A stretch of DNA of 64,000 bases from an uncultured Acidimicrobiales bacterium (GTDB lineage Bacteria > Actinomycetota > Acidimicrobiia > Acidimicrobiales > SZUA-35): assembly GCA_937930695.1 (NCBI GenBank), contig CALHCB010000026.1, positions 1 to 64,000 of the forward strand. Reading direction: 5' to 3'. Below are positions 30,007-40,624 of this stretch, in pieces (the stretch's first letter is position 1; every line of letters begins with the position of its first letter). The notes below the pieces were generated by a model that saw only the letters and a list, made by a program, of their open reading frames with translations, made no database searches and was not told the DNA's origin. The translations under genes were made by a program, and so were the position numbers.

Positions 30007-30079
30007 CGGTGTCGTCACCGGACGATGTTGCGGTTTTGTTACGACGTTTCTATGGTTCGCCGTCGTGGGCGTAGGACTG

Positions 30080-31096
30080 ATGGACGACACTCGCGGGGTA
30101 AACACCCCCCGGACCCTTCCATCGACGTCCCCACGGCGATCCGGGGGACCCGGTCACAACGGTGGAACCGACGGAATTTCACGGAGCGGTTTGATTGCTC
30201 TGGTTGTCTCAACAGTCGTGGCACTTGCTCTCGTCGCGGTGACGAGAGACTCGGGTGAGTCCCAGGATGTCGTGACCGAGTCAACACCTCCGAGTTCAGT
30301 GAGCAGCACATCCCAGCCTGCAGTCGATGAGTCGTCCGCTAGCTCACTCTTTGAAGATGTCGATAGCGATGGCTTGTTCTCGGCTGGAGCGCGGGTCGAA
30401 CTCCCCGATGCAGGACGGGTGCTCGACGGCGCGTCAAGTGCCGGGGTCCAAGCTTCGGATCTCGCGTCGACCAGCCCAGTCGATTCCTCGGCATCGCAGC
30501 GCGATCTTGATGATTCTGCGGTCCGCACCGACGGAGCAACTCGAGCCGCAGACCTGGTAAGTCCGTCTGGGCAGGCAGAGGGATCAACGTCCCCGACGAC
30601 TGCGTCGTCATCGAACGTGAGCCCGACAACTGCTGCTCCGACGACTCAAGCCCCGACCACTGCGGCGCCAACCACGGCGGCCCCGACGACGGCAGCGCCA
30701 ACCACCGAAGCTCCAACGACTGAAGCTCCGACCACCACGGCAGCTCCGACGACCGCGGCGCCGGTTCCAACGACGCAGGCACCGCCGGCAGAAACTGCTC
30801 CCCCTCCGGACACCACGGGTGAACCAACTGCGGACCAATGGGCCGCGGTTCGTCAATGTGAGGCGGGCGGCAGCTACACGATCGTCAGCAGAAGCGGGCT
30901 CTACCACGGGGCCTACCAGTTCCATCAGCAGACCTGGGACAGCGTTGCTGGTTCGCTTGGCAGAACCGACCTCGTAGGAATCCCCCCGGAAGTTGCTGCG
31001 GCGAGCGACCAGGACGCACTGGCCCTTCAGCTCTGGAGGCAGCGCGGCAACGCGCCATGGCCACACTGCGGCGTTCACCTTCCGCCTGGCCCTTGA
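30080..31096 (+). CDS. Secreted/anchored Rpf-like transglycosylase with Thr/Pro/Ala-rich linker
   Basis: TM (LIALVVSTVVALALVAV); PTTAAPTT linker; C-terminal ADQWAAVRQCEAGGSYTIVSRSGLYHGAYQFHQQTWDSV...WPHCG; located between tatD and ksgA as rpfB is in mycobacteria. Confidence 0.88.
   Translation: MDDTRGVNTPRTLPSTSPRRSGGPGHNGGTDGISRSGLIALVVSTVVALALVAVTRDSGESQDVVTESTPPSSVSSTSQPAVDESSASSLFEDVDSDGLFSAGARVELPDAGRVLDGASSAGVQASDLASTSPVDSSASQRDLDDSAVRTDGATRAADLVSPSGQAEGSTSPTTASSSNVSPTTAAPTTQAPTTAAPTTAAPTTAAPTTEAPTTEAPTTTAAPTTAAPVPTTQAPPAETAPPPDTTGEPTADQWAAVRQCEAGGSYTIVSRSGLYHGAYQFHQQTWDSVAGSLGRTDLVGIPPEVAAASDQDALALQLWRQRGNAPWPHCGVHLPPGP
30622..30789 (+). repeat. Low-complexity (A)PTT-coding repeat
   Basis: Repeated ccgacgactgcggcg/ccaaccacggcg-type units encoding APTTAAPTTAAPTTEAPTT. 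Confidence 0.85.
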
Positions 31097-32929: not shown

Positions 32930-33002
32930 TCCCGGGTAGTTCAGTTGGTAGAACACCAGACTTTGAATCTGGTTGTCGTAGGTTCGAGTCCTGCCCCGGG
33001 AG
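32930..33002 (+). tRNA. tRNA-Gln (anticodon TTG); CCA follows at 33003-33005
   Basis: TCCCGGG...CCCGGGA acceptor stem, CCAGA-CTTTGAA-TCTGG anticodon arm, GTTCGAGTC T-loop, encoded CCA. Confidence 0.96.
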
Positions 33003-33094
33003 CCACATTCTGAGTCTTGGCTTGGCCCGGGATCGTGTTGCAACATTGCTTCGATCCTTTGTCCCGAGAATCTCAGTTGCTAGAACGGATCATC

Positions 33095-34204
33095 ATGCTG
33101 GCGCAGACCCCCTTGTCAGCCCTCGTGATCGCAACGGCCTCAGGCGCCCCGATGCGATCTGAACGGCCCAAACCCATTCACTTGCTCTGCGGCCGTCCGA
33201 TGCTGAGTTATGTGCTCGACGCCATCGGGGATGCCGGCGTTGATCGCGTCAGTGTCGTCACCGGACCGTTCGGCGATTGGGTGAGCAAACGTGTTCTGGA
33301 AGATCCGCCCTCTGTCAGCTTGAACTTCGTGGAGCAGCGTCAGGGACGAGGGTCTGCTGACGCAGCCTTGCTCGGGTTGAGCGCCTTTGAAGACTTCGAC
33401 GACGACGGCGATCTGGTGATCGTTCCTGCGGATCTTCCCTTGTTGCAAACCGGGACCATCGCCGCACTCATCGAACGGCACCGAACTTCGGGCGCGGCGT
33501 GCACGGTGCTCACGACTGTGGTCACTGATTCTGGCCAGCACGACCGAATCGTGCGCGACCGACACGACCGGGTCGCCGAGGTCAGGCGAGCAGCCCATCT
33601 GTCCGACGACGAGGGTCGCCTGGAGAACGGTGACAGCGAGATTGCCTTTGGCATTTATTGCGTACGCCGCGGGCTCCTCGCCCCGGCGTTGCGCCGCACA
33701 CGGCCAGATCGGTCCGATGGAACCCACCAGTTGTCCGACGTTGTGGCTGTCTTGGCTGAGTCCGGGCATCCCGTTGTGACCGCTCCAGTTCTGGAGAGTC
33801 CTGTGGACGCTCGGCCGGTCGATGATCGACGGCTGCTCGCTGAAGCCGAGGCGGAACTCCGACATCGTACGAATCTTCGGTGGATGGATCGTGGTGTGAC
33901 CATGATCGACCCCTCTCGCACGTACATCGATGCGACCGTCGAGCTCGGCGTCGACGTCACGTTGTTCCCCGGAACCATGTTGCAGGGATCAACGGTGGTT
34001 GGTGATGGCTGCGAAATCGGACCCGACACGAGACTTGATCGATGTTCGATCGGCCGTGACTCGGTGATCGAAAAGACCATGGCCCGCCTGGCGGTCGTGG
34101 GCGACAACTGTCGAGTGGGCCCATTCGCCGTTCTCGAACCGGGTTCTGACCTGGCTGATGGTCTCGTGACCGGACCGTTCTATGCTTCCCGAGCCGGAGA
34201 GTGA
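33095..34204 (+). CDS. GlmU-like NTP-transferase/left-handed beta-helix protein, degenerate
   Basis: ALVIATASGAPMRSERPKPIHLLCGRPMLSYVLDAIGDAG aligns to the GlmU N-terminus; hexapeptide repeats VELGVDVTLFPGTMLQGSTVVGDGCEIGPDTRL; upstream of prs. Confidence 0.85.
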   Translation: MLAQTPLSALVIATASGAPMRSERPKPIHLLCGRPMLSYVLDAIGDAGVDRVSVVTGPFGDWVSKRVLEDPPSVSLNFVEQRQGRGSADAALLGLSAFEDFDDDGDLVIVPADLPLLQTGTIAALIERHRTSGAACTVLTTVVTDSGQHDRIVRDRHDRVAEVRRAAHLSDDEGRLENGDSEIAFGIYCVRRGLLAPALRRTRPDRSDGTHQLSDVVAVLAESGHPVVTAPVLESPVDARPVDDRRLLAEAEAELRHRTNLRWMDRGVTMIDPSRTYIDATVELGVDVTLFPGTMLQGSTVVGDGCEIGPDTRLDRCSIGRDSVIEKTMARLAVVGDNCRVGPFAVLEPGSDLADGLVTGPFYASRAGE

Positions 34205-34246: not shown

Positions 34247-35236
34247 GTGGAAACACGGCAAACGGTCACCAAGAAAACCCTCAATCTCTTTGCGGGACGA
34301 CACAACGACGGGCTGGCACATGACGTTGCCGAACTCCTTGGGATAGAAGTGACCGAGGCTCACCTGAGTCAGTTCGCGAACGGCGAGACGCACTGTCGCT
34401 TTGGCATGTCGGTGCGAGGCTCAGATGTCTTCATCATGCAGAGCCACAGTTCGCTCGAAGGTCGCTCGCTCAACGACTCGATCATGGAGCATCTGATCAT
34501 GGTCGATGCGGCTCGGCGGGCCTCAGCCAAGCGAATCACCGCAGTGATGCCGTTCTACGGATACGCCCGGCAGGATCGTAAATCCGAGGGTCGTGAGCCG
34601 ATCACGGCCAAGCTGATTGCTGACCTTTTCGCCGCGTCGGGGGCATCTCGACTGATCTCCATCGACTTGCACTCCGGACAAATCCAGGGCTTCTTCAACG
34701 GACCTGTCGATCATTTGGTTGCTATGCCGATCCTCGTTGACCACCTGAAGTCCTACGGCGACAACTTGGTTGTGGTGAGTCCGGATGCCGGTCGAGTCAA
34801 GGTTGCAGAGCGCTACGCCCAACAACTTCATGCCGACTTGGCCATCGTGCACAAGCGTCGCTTGAAGGGCGTGAAGAACGCCGTTGAGGCCAAGGATGTC
34901 GTCGGTGAGGTCGAGGGCCGTGACTGTGTGCTGATCGACGACATGATCGACACTGCGGGCACGATTTGCTCGGCCGCTGAGCTGCTAATGGAGCGTGGTG
35001 CGAACTCGGTGACAGCTGCTGCCACCCACGGCGTCTTCTCGGGTCCTGCGGTCGATCGGCTGAAGAACTCGGTCCTCCGTAAGGTTGTCGTCACCGACAC
35101 GCTCCCGATGCCCCCGGAGAAGCAGTTCGACAAGCTCGAAGTGCTGTCGGTTGCGCCTCTGATTGCGGACGCTGTTCAGGCAGTTTTCGAGGACACATCG
35201 GTCAGTAAGATCTTCGACGGTCAGAACCAAAACTGA
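34247..35236 (+). CDS. prs: Ribose-phosphate pyrophosphokinase
   Basis: FANGETHCRFGMSVRGSDVFIMQS, YGYARQDRKSEGREPITAKLIADL, SIDLHSGQIQGFF, DCVLIDDMIDTAGTICSAAELL. Confidence 0.97.
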   Translation: METRQTVTKKTLNLFAGRHNDGLAHDVAELLGIEVTEAHLSQFANGETHCRFGMSVRGSDVFIMQSHSSLEGRSLNDSIMEHLIMVDAARRASAKRITAVMPFYGYARQDRKSEGREPITAKLIADLFAASGASRLISIDLHSGQIQGFFNGPVDHLVAMPILVDHLKSYGDNLVVVSPDAGRVKVAERYAQQLHADLAIVHKRRLKGVKNAVEAKDVVGEVEGRDCVLIDDMIDTAGTICSAAELLMERGANSVTAAATHGVFSGPAVDRLKNSVLRKVVVTDTLPMPPEKQFDKLEVLSVAPLIADAVQAVFEDTSVSKIFDGQNQN

Positions 35237-36707: not shown

Positions 36708-37172
36708 GTGAGATCCCGTCGTTCCCTCGTTGCGGTCAGCGTCCTCTTCGCTGGTGCATTGGCAGTGCTTTCCTTCGCCGATCGCGCCCCGGGGTTGAGC
36801 AAAGTAGGACTCGGCTGGGTCCGCCAGATCGGGCAACGCATCGAGATGCGCTCGGGCTATGACTTCATCGATCGAAGCGACGTCCCCTTCGCCTACGACA
36901 CGATCGGCCATATGACGCTGTGGTTCATTGCCGGCTTGCTCTGCTGGTGGCTCTTCGGACGTCGCTCGACCCCGACGTTCATCGCGATTTCCCTCTTCGC
37001 TGTGTCTGCCGGTGTCGAGGTGGCCCAGGGCTTCTTGGCGTCGACTCGCACACCAGATGTTGTCGATCTGGCGGCAAACGGAGTTGGGATTGCGCTTGGA
37101 GTCTTCGTCGGGGTGACGATCACGATGATGGCTGAATTGTTCCAGCGGGGAGTCCGTAGCCTTACCCGGTGA
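36708..37172 (+). CDS. VanZ-like family membrane protein
   Basis: AYDTIGHMTLWFIAGLLCWWLFG...AGVEVAQGFLASTRTPDVVDLAANGVGIALGV. Confidence 0.85.
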   Translation: MRSRRSLVAVSVLFAGALAVLSFADRAPGLSKVGLGWVRQIGQRIEMRSGYDFIDRSDVPFAYDTIGHMTLWFIAGLLCWWLFGRRSTPTFIAISLFAVSAGVEVAQGFLASTRTPDVVDLAANGVGIALGVFVGVTITMMAELFQRGVRSLTR

Positions 37173-40100
37173 CCTTTCGTCGCCTCCCCGATCTTGTTGC
37201 TTCTGACCCCTCGCTTGAGCGAGTCATTGGTCGTTCCGTTGACGTGCTCGCGGTGCCGAGCCCAGCTCGAGCGATCACGCTCGCTGGTCTGGCAACGGGC
37301 TCATCTCGCCGCCCAGTTCTCATCGCCGTTCCCACGAGCGGAGAAGCTGACCGTCTCGCTCGGGACCTCGCCCTCTTCCTTGGAGAGGACGACGTGTGTA
37401 CGTTCCCAGCTTGGGAAACGCTGCCCTTCGAGCGGGTGAGTCCATCGATCGAGGCAATGGGCCAACGTCTGCGGACCATGTGGCACCTCCAGGATCCGGA
37501 ACGGTGCCCGCAAGTGGTAGTGGCACCGGTTCGTGCGCTGGTCCAGCGACTTGGTCCCCATGTCGAGGAGGTCGACCCAATCCTTGTTGGCATTGGCGAC
37601 CAGCTCGACCCCCAGCGTTTGGTAGCTGACCTGGTGATGGCCGGATACCGCCGGGAGCCTCAGGTCGAACATCGAGGCGAAGTAGCAATCCGGGGTTCCA
37701 TCGTCGATGTCTTTCCCTCGACCGCCGATATTCCGATCCGCATCGACTTGTGGGGTGATGAAGTCGATCGCCTCACCAACTTCTCGGTAGCCGACCAACG
37801 CTCCACGATCGATATCTCCGAGGCGGAGATCTTCCCCTGTCGTGAGCTGCTGCCAACTGAGGAGATCCAAGAGAAGGCCGGCGAGTTGGTCGCTACGGCG
37901 CCTTGGGGTCGCGAGCAATGGGAGCGACTGTCTGAAGGGCAGCAATTCGACGGCATGGAGTCGTGGTTGCCGTGGTTGGCCGAAGAAGAGAGAGTGCTCC
38001 CTGACCTCCTCGGCCCCGACTCGCTCATCGTCCTCGTCGAGCCGCGACGAATGCGAGATCGCGGAGCCGACCTCCTCGCAGAAGAGGCTGATCTCGCCAC
38101 CTCACTTGCGCGGACGTGGGGAGCGCTCGACGAGTCAGCGGACGATCACGCCGCCGACATTTTCCCCAAGCTTCACTTGCCGTTCGATCGTCTCCTGGCC
38201 CGTACAACTGCCCCAGTTGTGACGGCGACCGCACTACCCGAGTCACCAGAAGTGGCGGCTGTTGCGGCATCGGGATGGGACTCACCGGGTGAGGAGCTGG
38301 CTGGCCGACTCCGCCAGGTCATCGCCGACGGTGCTCGTCTCATCATTTGCGCAGATGGCGCAGGAACGATCGGCAGGGTTGAGAGTCTCCTGGGTGATTG
38401 GGGAATTCACCCGACCAACCACGGCAGCACGGTTCCGGAGAACTTCGGCCCCGGCAGCCACCTCGTCATCTCCAGTATCGAGCGCGGCTTTGTCCTTCCC
38501 GATGTTGGACTCGCCATCATCAGCGAAGCGGAGCTGACAGGTCGAAGGCGCTCTCATCGAAAGGCGAAGAAGCGGGCCCGACAGAGCGAGGGCTTCTTCG
38601 ACGATCTGGCTCCCGGCGACTACATCGTCCATCACCAGCACGGCGTCGGACGGTTCGGCGGCATGGTCAAGCGAGCCATCGGAGGCAACCAGCGCGACTA
38701 CCTGATGCTCGAGTATCGGGGTGACGACAAGCTCTACGTGCCGTCAGATCAGATTGATTTGATTCGGCGCTACACGGGTGGCGACTCACCCTCGCTGCAT
38801 CGTCTCGGCGGAGCCGACTTCGCCAAGTCGAAGGCCAAGGTTCGTTCAGCGGTCGCAGAGATCGCCCAGGAACTCGTGGTGCTCTATCAAAGTCGGATCG
38901 CCACCGAAGGAGTCGCGTTCGAACCCGATACGCCGTGGCAGAGCGAACTTGCAGAATCGTTCCCGTTTGAGCTGACGCCCGATCAGTCAGAAGCCATCGA
39001 TGCCATCAAGACCGACATGGAATCGACGATTCCGATGGATCGGCTGGTCGTGGGCGATGTCGGCTTCGGAAAGACTGAGATCGCGGTGCAGGCCGCCTTC
39101 AAGGCGGTCCAAAGCGGGAAACAAGTTGCAGTCCTAGTCCCGACCACGCTGCTTGCCCAACAACACCATCAAACCTTCAGCGATCGGTTCGCGCCCTATC
39201 CGGTGCGCGTCGAGGTTCTAAGTCGCTTCCTGACACCGGCACAGGGTCGCAAGGTCGTCGCCGACACCGCTGCGGGCGAGGTCGACGTCTTGATCGGCAC
39301 CCACCGAATGCTGTCCGAAGACGTGAAGGTTCCGAAGCTTGGGCTCCTCGTCATCGACGAAGAGCAGCGGTTCGGCGTCTCACACAAAGAGTCGATCAAG
39401 CAACTGCGCACGAACGTTGATGTGTTGACGCTGACGGCGACGCCAATTCCTCGCACGCTCGAGATGAGCTTGACCGGTATTCGAGACCTCTCACTCCTCA
39501 ACACGCCGCCAGCAGACCGCCAGCCGATCCTGACGTATGTGGGCGAGTACGACGAGCGTCCGGTGGCTGAGGCGATCCGTCGAGAGCTCCTCCGCGAGGG
39601 GCAGGTGTTCTACGTCCACAACCGCGTGCAGAGCATCGAGAAGGTCGCGAACGACATTCGCAATCTGGTCCCCGAGGCGCGAGTCGCGATCGCTCACGGC
39701 CAGATGGACGAAGGCTCGTTGGAGAAGATCGTTCTCGACTTCTGGGAAGGCGAGTTCGACGTCTTGGTGTGCACCACCATCATCGAGTCCGGGATCGATA
39801 TGCCGACCGTCAACACTCTCGTCGTCGACCGGGCCGAACTGCTTGGTCTGGGACAGTTGCATCAGCTCCGCGGCCGCGTCGGTCGATCTGGACAGCGGGC
39901 GTACGCCTACCTGTTCACCAGGCCGGATGCATCGCTGAGCGAGGAGGCCTACGAGCGGCTCCGCACGATCGGCGAAGCAACCGAGCTTGGATCAGGATTC
40001 AAGATTGCGATGCGCGACCTGGAGATTCGTGGTGCAGGCAACTTGCTCGGGACAGGCCAAACCGGGCACATCGCGGCGGTTGGTTATGACCTCTATTGCC

Positions 40101-40624
40101 AGCTGGTGACGGAGGCAGTTGCGGAACTGAACGGTCAGGTCGCCGAAGAGGTCGTCGAGATGAAGCTCGACCTCCCGATCGATGCCAATTTGCCGCCCGA
40201 ATACGTCGGGGCAGAGACACAACGGCTCGAGGCATATCGTCGTCTCGCCGCAGTCACCAGTGACCAAGAGGTCGAAGACATTCGCACCGAGTGGGCCGAC
40301 CGCTACGGGCCGATTCCCGAGGTGGCGAACCGCCTCCTCGAGGTTGCAAGACTCAGGGCCGCGTGTTCTCGGATTGGCGTGCGCGACCTCGTCGTCGTCA
40401 AGGGACCAGGTTTCGGCGGCCCGGACTGGATCGTGAAACTCGGTCCGGTGACGATGCGAGACAGCCAAGAGATCCGCTTCGAGCGGCTCTTCAAGCACGG
40501 GGTTTGGAAGCCAGGGGAGTACGGGCCAGACGGTGGACAGGTCCAAGTGGGATTGAAGAAGTCGAAGAATCTGGCAGGCGACATCGTGTTGTTCTTGGAC
40601 ACCATCTTCCCCGCTGACACCTAG
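37169..40624 (+). CDS. mfd: Transcription-repair coupling factor
   Basis: 1151 aa; DYIVHHQHGVGRFGGM RNAP-interaction domain; DRLVVGDVGFGKTEIAVQAAF; LTATPIPRTLEMSLTGIRDLS; LHQLRGRVGRSGQRAYAYL. Confidence 0.98.
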   Translation: MTFRRLPDLVASDPSLERVIGRSVDVLAVPSPARAITLAGLATGSSRRPVLIAVPTSGEADRLARDLALFLGEDDVCTFPAWETLPFERVSPSIEAMGQRLRTMWHLQDPERCPQVVVAPVRALVQRLGPHVEEVDPILVGIGDQLDPQRLVADLVMAGYRREPQVEHRGEVAIRGSIVDVFPSTADIPIRIDLWGDEVDRLTNFSVADQRSTIDISEAEIFPCRELLPTEEIQEKAGELVATAPWGREQWERLSEGQQFDGMESWLPWLAEEERVLPDLLGPDSLIVLVEPRRMRDRGADLLAEEADLATSLARTWGALDESADDHAADIFPKLHLPFDRLLARTTAPVVTATALPESPEVAAVAASGWDSPGEELAGRLRQVIADGARLIICADGAGTIGRVESLLGDWGIHPTNHGSTVPENFGPGSHLVISSIERGFVLPDVGLAIISEAELTGRRRSHRKAKKRARQSEGFFDDLAPGDYIVHHQHGVGRFGGMVKRAIGGNQRDYLMLEYRGDDKLYVPSDQIDLIRRYTGGDSPSLHRLGGADFAKSKAKVRSAVAEIAQELVVLYQSRIATEGVAFEPDTPWQSELAESFPFELTPDQSEAIDAIKTDMESTIPMDRLVVGDVGFGKTEIAVQAAFKAVQSGKQVAVLVPTTLLAQQHHQTFSDRFAPYPVRVEVLSRFLTPAQGRKVVADTAAGEVDVLIGTHRMLSEDVKVPKLGLLVIDEEQRFGVSHKESIKQLRTNVDVLTLTATPIPRTLEMSLTGIRDLSLLNTPPADRQPILTYVGEYDERPVAEAIRRELLREGQVFYVHNRVQSIEKVANDIRNLVPEARVAIAHGQMDEGSLEKIVLDFWEGEFDVLVCTTIIESGIDMPTVNTLVVDRAELLGLGQLHQLRGRVGRSGQRAYAYLFTRPDASLSEEAYERLRTIGEATELGSGFKIAMRDLEIRGAGNLLGTGQTGHIAAVGYDLYCQLVTEAVAELNGQVAEEVVEMKLDLPIDANLPPEYVGAETQRLEAYRRLAAVTSDQEVEDIRTEWADRYGPIPEVANRLLEVARLRAACSRIGVRDLVVVKGPGFGGPDWIVKLGPVTMRDSQEIRFERLFKHGVWKPGEYGPDGGQVQVGLKKSKNLAGDIVLFLDTIFPADT

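Follow-up and report, generated by a model that had tools for sequence, protein, structure and literature searches.

A degenerate but conserved GlmU in Acidimicrobiales and a nucleotidyltransferase that may have displaced it

The gene that occupies the glmU position in an uncultured Acidimicrobiales bacterium encodes a GlmU homologue whose uridylyltransferase site is destroyed and whose acetyltransferase half is absent. This arrangement is best explained, with a probability of roughly 0.7, by a non-orthologous displacement in which a 3pnn-like nucleotidyltransferase (NTase) took over the GlcNAc-1-P uridylyltransferase step and GlmU was left catalytically dead but conserved; the catalytic assignments of both proteins are predictions that draw on sequence and on phyletic distribution. 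A bifunctional GlcNAc-1-P uridylyltransferase and GlcN-1-P acetyltransferase, GlmU produces UDP-GlcNAc, a sugar donor for the cell wall; it counts as an essential, conserved bacterial enzyme and is a drug target in actinobacteria. In the Acidimicrobiales its acetyltransferase half appears to be missing, and many families of the order also lack the uridylyltransferase half, for which a specific replacement candidate is named here. Literature searches for truncated GlmU, a GlmU pseudoenzyme, GlmU in Acidimicrobiia, and UDP-GlcNAc in Microthrix returned nothing. The window, which is the whole 64,000-nucleotide stretch of DNA that was analysed, comes from contig C26 of a draft genome, G000 (86% complete, 4.36 Mb).

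A GlmU homologue at the canonical locus

The product of the gene at 33095-34204 (Table 1) is beyond doubt a GlmU homologue, and it shares common ancestry with GlmU by both orthologous position and sequence. A sequence-only reading of the window had recognised the gene order tRNA-Gln, glmU, prs, rplY, pth, mfd. This order is borne out by the tRNA call, by the Pfam assignment of prs, and by Pfam matches for rplY (L25/TL5) and pth downstream of it; mfd (37169-40624) was assigned by reading only. GlmU models match the protein, but far below their equivalog cut-offs: NCBIfam PRK14352 gives 258 bits (E=1.2e-76) against a cut-off of 611, and TIGR01173 gives 217 bits against a cut-off of 367. In the PDB, M. 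tuberculosis (Mtb) GlmU aligns with residues 8-357 (E=1.8e-49), and matches are found in 57 of 61 relatives. Elsewhere in the window, the gene at 30065-31096 (+) encodes a long Ser/Thr/Ala/Pro-rich linker followed by a C-terminal resuscitation-promoting-factor-like transglycosylase domain.

Table 1. Positions of the GlmU homologue, its motifs and neighbours, and the candidate NTase (window coordinates unless a contig is named)
Feature	Position	Strand	Basis or remark
tRNA-Gln (TTG), upstream, canonical locus member	32930..33005	+	
Degenerate, C-terminally short GlmU homologue, 369 aa, predicted pseudoenzyme	33095..34204	+	ORF, profiles, alignment
IATASGAPM replacing LAAGEGTRM; nucleotide-binding signature, G15 to A and R19 to P	33128..33154	+	alignment
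RPKP kept (K26)	33164..33175	+	alignment
PADLP kept (D114, Mg2+ ligand)	33425..33439	+	alignment
SEIAFGI replacing EVN-G motif; N181 to A	33635..33655	+	alignment
SDGTHQLSD replacing NAQGEYYLTD; N239 (metal/sugar ligand), Q241, E243 and Y245 gone	33713..33739	+	alignment
Short left-handed beta-helix, ends TGPFYASRAGE* before the acetyltransferase residues	33893..34201	+	end point as in intact orthologues
prs, ribose-phosphate pyrophosphokinase, downstream neighbour	34247..35236	+	Pfam
3pnn-like ("GalY"-like) NTase, single copy	G000:C89:20055-20861	-	outside window

Loss of the uridylyltransferase site

The protein was aligned with Mtb GlmU and with 142 Acidimicrobiales orthologues, and 17 uridylyltransferase positions (Mtb GlmU numbering) were scored. 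The protein of the window keeps six of them: G17, K26, Q83, G88, D114, and the Asp of LTD. G15 is replaced by A, T18 by A, and R19 by P, and T89 is Ser; Y150 becomes H, G151 D, E166 R, and N181 A; N239 becomes R, Q241 D, E243 T, and Y245 Q. The signature of an intact GlmU, G-x-G-T-R...K together with the ligands E166, N181, and N239, is not present. The sequence-only reading had described, by eye, a nucleotide-binding loop deprived of its Gly and catalytic Arg, a change from EINTGI to EIAFGI, and the loss of an Asn metal ligand in SDGTHQLSD; the alignment recovers all three, as the changes at G15 and R19, at N181, and at N239, respectively. The uridylyltransferase site is destroyed, and the protein is predicted to be a pseudoenzyme.

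An order-wide loss of the acetyltransferase half

The GlmU profile match stops at position 344 of 452, short of the acetyltransferase residues, and a C-terminal acetyltransferase domain with the catalytic His is lacking. The absence of this region had been claimed before and is confirmed, but it is not particular to this lineage. No GlmU that is full length through the acetyltransferase half was found in any of 158 genomes sampled evenly from Acidimicrobiales (e.g. L044-L061, L222-L314), and therefore the loss of this half is order-wide and stands apart from the degeneration of the uridylyltransferase site, which is a second, separate loss. Of 14 genomes used as controls, 9 give a score that exceeds the cut-off of the GlmU model, among them Corynebacterium glutamicum or others whose enzyme is full length. 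Orthologues in other Acidimicrobiales families stop at the same TGPFY, usually with an intact uridylyltransferase site of the type AAGEGTRM...RPKP...E...N...NAQGEYYLTD.

A long GlmS-like protein (1149 aa) encoded beside glmM was considered as the missing enzyme and rejected, because no acetyltransferase domain could be recognised in it; a hint of GNAT below the threshold (E=0.16) was taken as chance. This unusual GlmS, of about 1140-1150 aa, follows glmM at L152:2212-5658 (G000:C29) and also at L153-L155 and L157-L159, and it is found in the window's family and in family f12. Behind the N-terminal MCGI motif its glutaminase domain is interrupted by a long insert, and its C terminus is extended by ~270 aa that have neither recognisable homology nor known domains.

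Variation and selection among the GlmU remnants

The uridylyltransferase site is intact in about two thirds of Acidimicrobiales families and is degraded or lost in the window's family and about 17 others. Within the window's family the degenerate proteins are mostly 55-93% identical. Across its genera the residue at position 19 is P, T, Q, S, or H, and that at position 239 is R, P, S, T, D, and others; such variation between genera at the lost positions argues for relaxed constraint there. The GlmU-like gene was not detected in four genomes of the family that are 95-97% complete (G010, G012, G018, G020), and two others (G008 and G024) have very divergent copies. Outright loss of GlmU also recurs inside families f1, f27, f39, and f45, which bear the NTase. 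Intermediates occur in families f13, f40, and f43/f45, in which GxGxR...K is intact and the sugar-site residues are gone; the NTase is present in all of them.

A decaying pseudogene is rejected, since the frame is open in almost every relative and dN/dS lies at 0.08-0.22 by the Nei-Gojobori method, although several of the dS estimates approach saturation. The beta-helix is the domain with the lower dN/dS in 7 of 9 pairs of degenerate GlmU, and the domain with the higher dN/dS in 6 of 7 pairs of intact orthologues. The best reading of the degenerate protein is that of a conserved but dispensable pseudoenzyme, perhaps with a scaffold or regulatory role.

A working uridylyltransferase, acting on GlcNAc-1-P or on another sugar-1-P through altered residues, would be consistent with this purifying selection, with the retention of K26, Q83, G88, and D114, and with the canonical locus. 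However, the lost positions vary among genera, as expected from relaxed constraint and not from one new chemistry, and the gene is missing from the four nearly complete family genomes. For these two reasons the "altered chemistry" that the sequence-only reading had offered as one of its two explanations is disfavoured, and we consider a working enzyme improbable.

A separate observation concerns f43 and f45 (L295, L297, L298, L301), which share identical changes (D151, A181, G239, T241, S245) and have the nucleotide loop intact. These proteins may be remnants of GlmU that have acquired a new substrate, and not just products of decay.

The need for UDP-GlcNAc and enzymes unlikely to be its general source

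Each of the 61 relatives examined has a GlmM match, which exceeds the cut-off in 57 of them. MurA, which consumes UDP-GlcNAc, is found in 152 of the 158 genomes and in 121 of the 123 of good quality, almost all GlmU-less genomes included. Since MurA is nearly universal, UDP-GlcNAc is needed and some enzyme must make it; with both GlmM and MurA nearly universal, the pathway is in use. A search of G000 for a complete GlmU, as had been proposed, found none: the next best match to the GlmU model is a GalU-like protein at 43 bits, and a second GlmU in this draft genome is accordingly rejected.

The uridylyl step might be performed by some other enzyme, either a UAP1/AGX pyrophosphorylase or an RmlA or GalU of relaxed specificity. 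RmlA-like enzymes are present in nearly all family genomes examined, and a UAP1/AGX homologue (PDB 8yp3, E=3e-66) is present in two sister species of the window's genus (G001 and G003), which shows that the uridylyl step is open to replacement in that genus. However, UAP1 was found neither in G000 (86% complete) nor in the rest of the family, and it is rejected as a general replacement; G008 has no GalU-like or GlgC-like match; and neither UAP1 nor RmlA/GalU is seen to vary with the condition of the GlmU site. Among the NTP_transferase matches, GalU, RmlA, GlgC, and ManC-type enzymes were likewise rejected, as no pattern tracks the GlmU state. A role for any of these enzymes as the general solution thus seems unlikely. 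The UAP1/AGX genes, which are of eukaryote type, lie at L065/L115 (G001) and L066/L116 (G003) and adjoin a molybdopterin-biosynthesis-like gene.

A 3pnn-like NTase with a complementary distribution

The candidate surfaced when the nucleotidyltransferases in the genomes of the window's family were listed. It is a protein of ~275 aa whose best solved match is 3pnn, a "conserved domain protein" from Porphyromonas gingivalis (phmmer E=3e-49). It is present in 34 of 37 family genomes, almost always in one copy and at 60-73% identity; the three genomes without it are 76-81% complete, and all four family genomes without a GlmU-like gene have it. Across the order it occurs in 64 of 158 genomes, in two forms: type A, which scores 190 bits or more, and a more distant type B.

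The presence of the NTase follows the state of the GlmU site. When GlmU is called absent if there is no match at E<=1e-50, a class that may include extreme degeneration, the NTase accompanies a degraded or absent site in 52 of the assessable genomes and is missing in 9, and it accompanies an intact site in 12 and is missing in 83 (p=2e-20); these genomes are related and mostly MAGs. For genomes at least 90% complete, the NTase is found in 39 of the 41 whose site is degraded or absent and in 10 of the 83 whose site is intact (Fisher p=2e-20). Counting families by their majority state gives 17 with and 1 without the NTase when the site is degraded or absent, and 5 with and 34 without when it is intact (p=3e-9). 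With a MurA tree as proxy for the species tree, which is weakly resolved and yields 4 supported independent pairs, on average 3.4 pairs agree with the expectation and 0 contradict it, which is not significant.

Exceptions occur in both directions. An intact site and the NTase are found together in 12 of 95 genomes, two of which have type A. These two, G116 (L221, L234) and G137 (L242, L318), carry both an intact truncated GlmU and the type A NTase, and they may represent recent or transitional states. A degraded or absent site without the NTase is seen in nine genomes, two of them at least 90% complete. The latter, G067 and G104, have no GlmU match at 1e-50 and no NTase match; G079 (L314) has a degraded GlmU and no NTase match. 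Either a third solution or assembly gaps could account for these three.

An AlphaFold model of a relative of the NTase (L342, 66% identical; 38 sequences) has a pLDDT of 95.5. Foldseek searches with this model return 3pnn first (E=6.6e-27, TMq 0.88), followed by RmlA, the archaeal sugar-1-P nucleotidyltransferase ST0452 with GlcNAc bound, UDP-glucose pyrophosphorylases, and GlmU. Invariant or nearly invariant in the family are AAGxGSRxGG.KQ, the aspartates of NADD.YG, E167, SMN, and an E...P near the C terminus. By its modelled fold and its conserved G-x-G-x-R, K, D, E, and N positions, the protein is assigned as a sugar-1-P nucleotidyltransferase.

Gene neighbourhoods bear on the substrate. 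In 76 loci from other phyla (Bacteroidota, Acidobacteriota, Spirochaetota, Bacillota), the neighbour of the NTase is an N-acetylhexosamine 1-kinase in 12 (PDB 4ocu, E=4e-80), galE in 14, and galK or aldose 1-epimerase in a few. The adjoining kinase makes GlcNAc-1-P or GalNAc-1-P, which points to the NTase as a hexosamine-1-P uridylyltransferase. GlcNAc-1-P uridylyltransferase activity is accordingly a prediction, based on phyletic complementarity and NahK adjacency. A phyletic-pattern study has predicted that an NTP_transferase clustered with galE, GalY (Amuc_0031), replaces GalT (PMC5583593). GalY and the 3pnn-like NTase are probably the same family, and the clustering with galE agrees with this. 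In NCBI the NTase has matches in uncultured Acidimicrobiales and in a MAG of Candidatus Microthrix, among others. In the NTase tree the Acidimicrobiales sequences are separate from those of the other sampled phyla; the gene is therefore not a recent import into the window's family.

The link between the NTase and the loss of GlmU could in principle reflect shared ancestry only, with the NTase serving galactose or another UDP-sugar and the true UDP-GlcNAc enzyme escaping detection. The Bacteroidota relatives that adjoin galE, galK, and aldose 1-epimerase, the probable identity with the predicted GalY (PMC5583593), and the few supported independent pairs in the MurA tree are what one would expect in that case. 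On the other hand, the association holds at the level of families, GlmU has been lost outright several times within NTase-bearing families (f1, f27, f39, f45), and no other GlmU-like match fills the gap. We give this explanation a low probability.

A proposed course of displacement

Taken together, these observations favour displacement of the GlmU uridylyltransferase by the NTase. In the proposed pathway GlmS and GlmM would still supply GlcN-1-P, an acetyltransferase separate from GlmU would convert it to GlcNAc-1-P, and the NTase would join GlcNAc-1-P to UTP, yielding UDP-GlcNAc for MurA. Freed of catalysis, GlmU would have lost first its sugar-binding residues, then the nucleotide-binding loop, and in several lineages the whole gene; where the protein is kept, purifying selection would maintain its beta-helix form without catalysis, perhaps for scaffolding or regulation. 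Against this explanation stand, besides the exceptions in the distribution, the relatedness of the genomes and the weakly resolved tree, a gap in the reconstructed pathway at the acetyltransferase step and the possibility that the NTase is a Gal-1-P or Glc-1-P enzyme, as its relatives cluster with galE/galK.

The other explanation in the sequence-only reading, that the UDP-GlcNAc enzyme lies elsewhere and GlmU has been repurposed, is upheld in part. For the uridylyltransferase step there is now a candidate with a complementary distribution; for the repurposing, the evidence is purifying selection. A more far-reaching version is entertained tentatively and is less likely to be right: another enzyme would acetylate GlcN(-1-P) in the whole order, a 3pnn-like enzyme would have replaced the uridylyltransferase in many families, and some of these would keep the dead GlmU as a non-catalytic beta-helix subunit that, like GMPPA, regulates or scaffolds the new enzymes.

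If displacement by the NTase is correct, a widespread family with a solved structure (3pnn) and an uncharacterised function acquires a probable one, and the Acidimicrobiales preserve successive stages by which an enzyme of a core pathway was displaced by a non-orthologous one. The order-wide loss of the other GlmU half also points to a missing acetyltransferase, for GlcN-1-P or GlcN-6-P, that awaits discovery.

Comparison with known systems

The protein of the window shares with GlmU (TIGR01173, PRK14352) homology over residues 4-364, the locus, the start of the beta-helix, and K26, Q83, G88, and D114; it differs in falling below the equivalog cut-offs, in the loss of G15, R19, E166, N181, and N239, and in the absence of the acetyltransferase half. 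It is orthologous to the truncated, motif-intact GlmU proteins of other Acidimicrobiales (G047, G169, G069) and has the same length and TGPFY end, but these keep 15-17 of the 17 scored residues, whereas it keeps 6.

GMPPA and eIF2B epsilon/gamma are regulatory or pseudoenzyme subunits of the nucleotidyltransferase type. Like them, the degenerate GlmU combines an NTase domain with a beta-helix and has a dead site kept by selection, and the Pfam models of the eIF2B/GMPPB beta-helix match it weakly; unlike them, it has a regulatory role only by conjecture, and it lies outside those families.

AmgK/MurU and NahK-type pairs bypass GlmU. These salvage systems, like the NTase loci of other phyla, place a sugar 1-kinase beside a small uridylyltransferase; in contrast, the Acidimicrobiales NTase is not seen beside a sugar kinase, and de novo GlmS and GlmM are present. 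Finally, the NTase belongs to the 3pnn family, as GalY probably does, but GalY was predicted to act on Gal-1-P (PMC5583593), whereas the prediction for the Acidimicrobiales NTase is GlcNAc-1-P.
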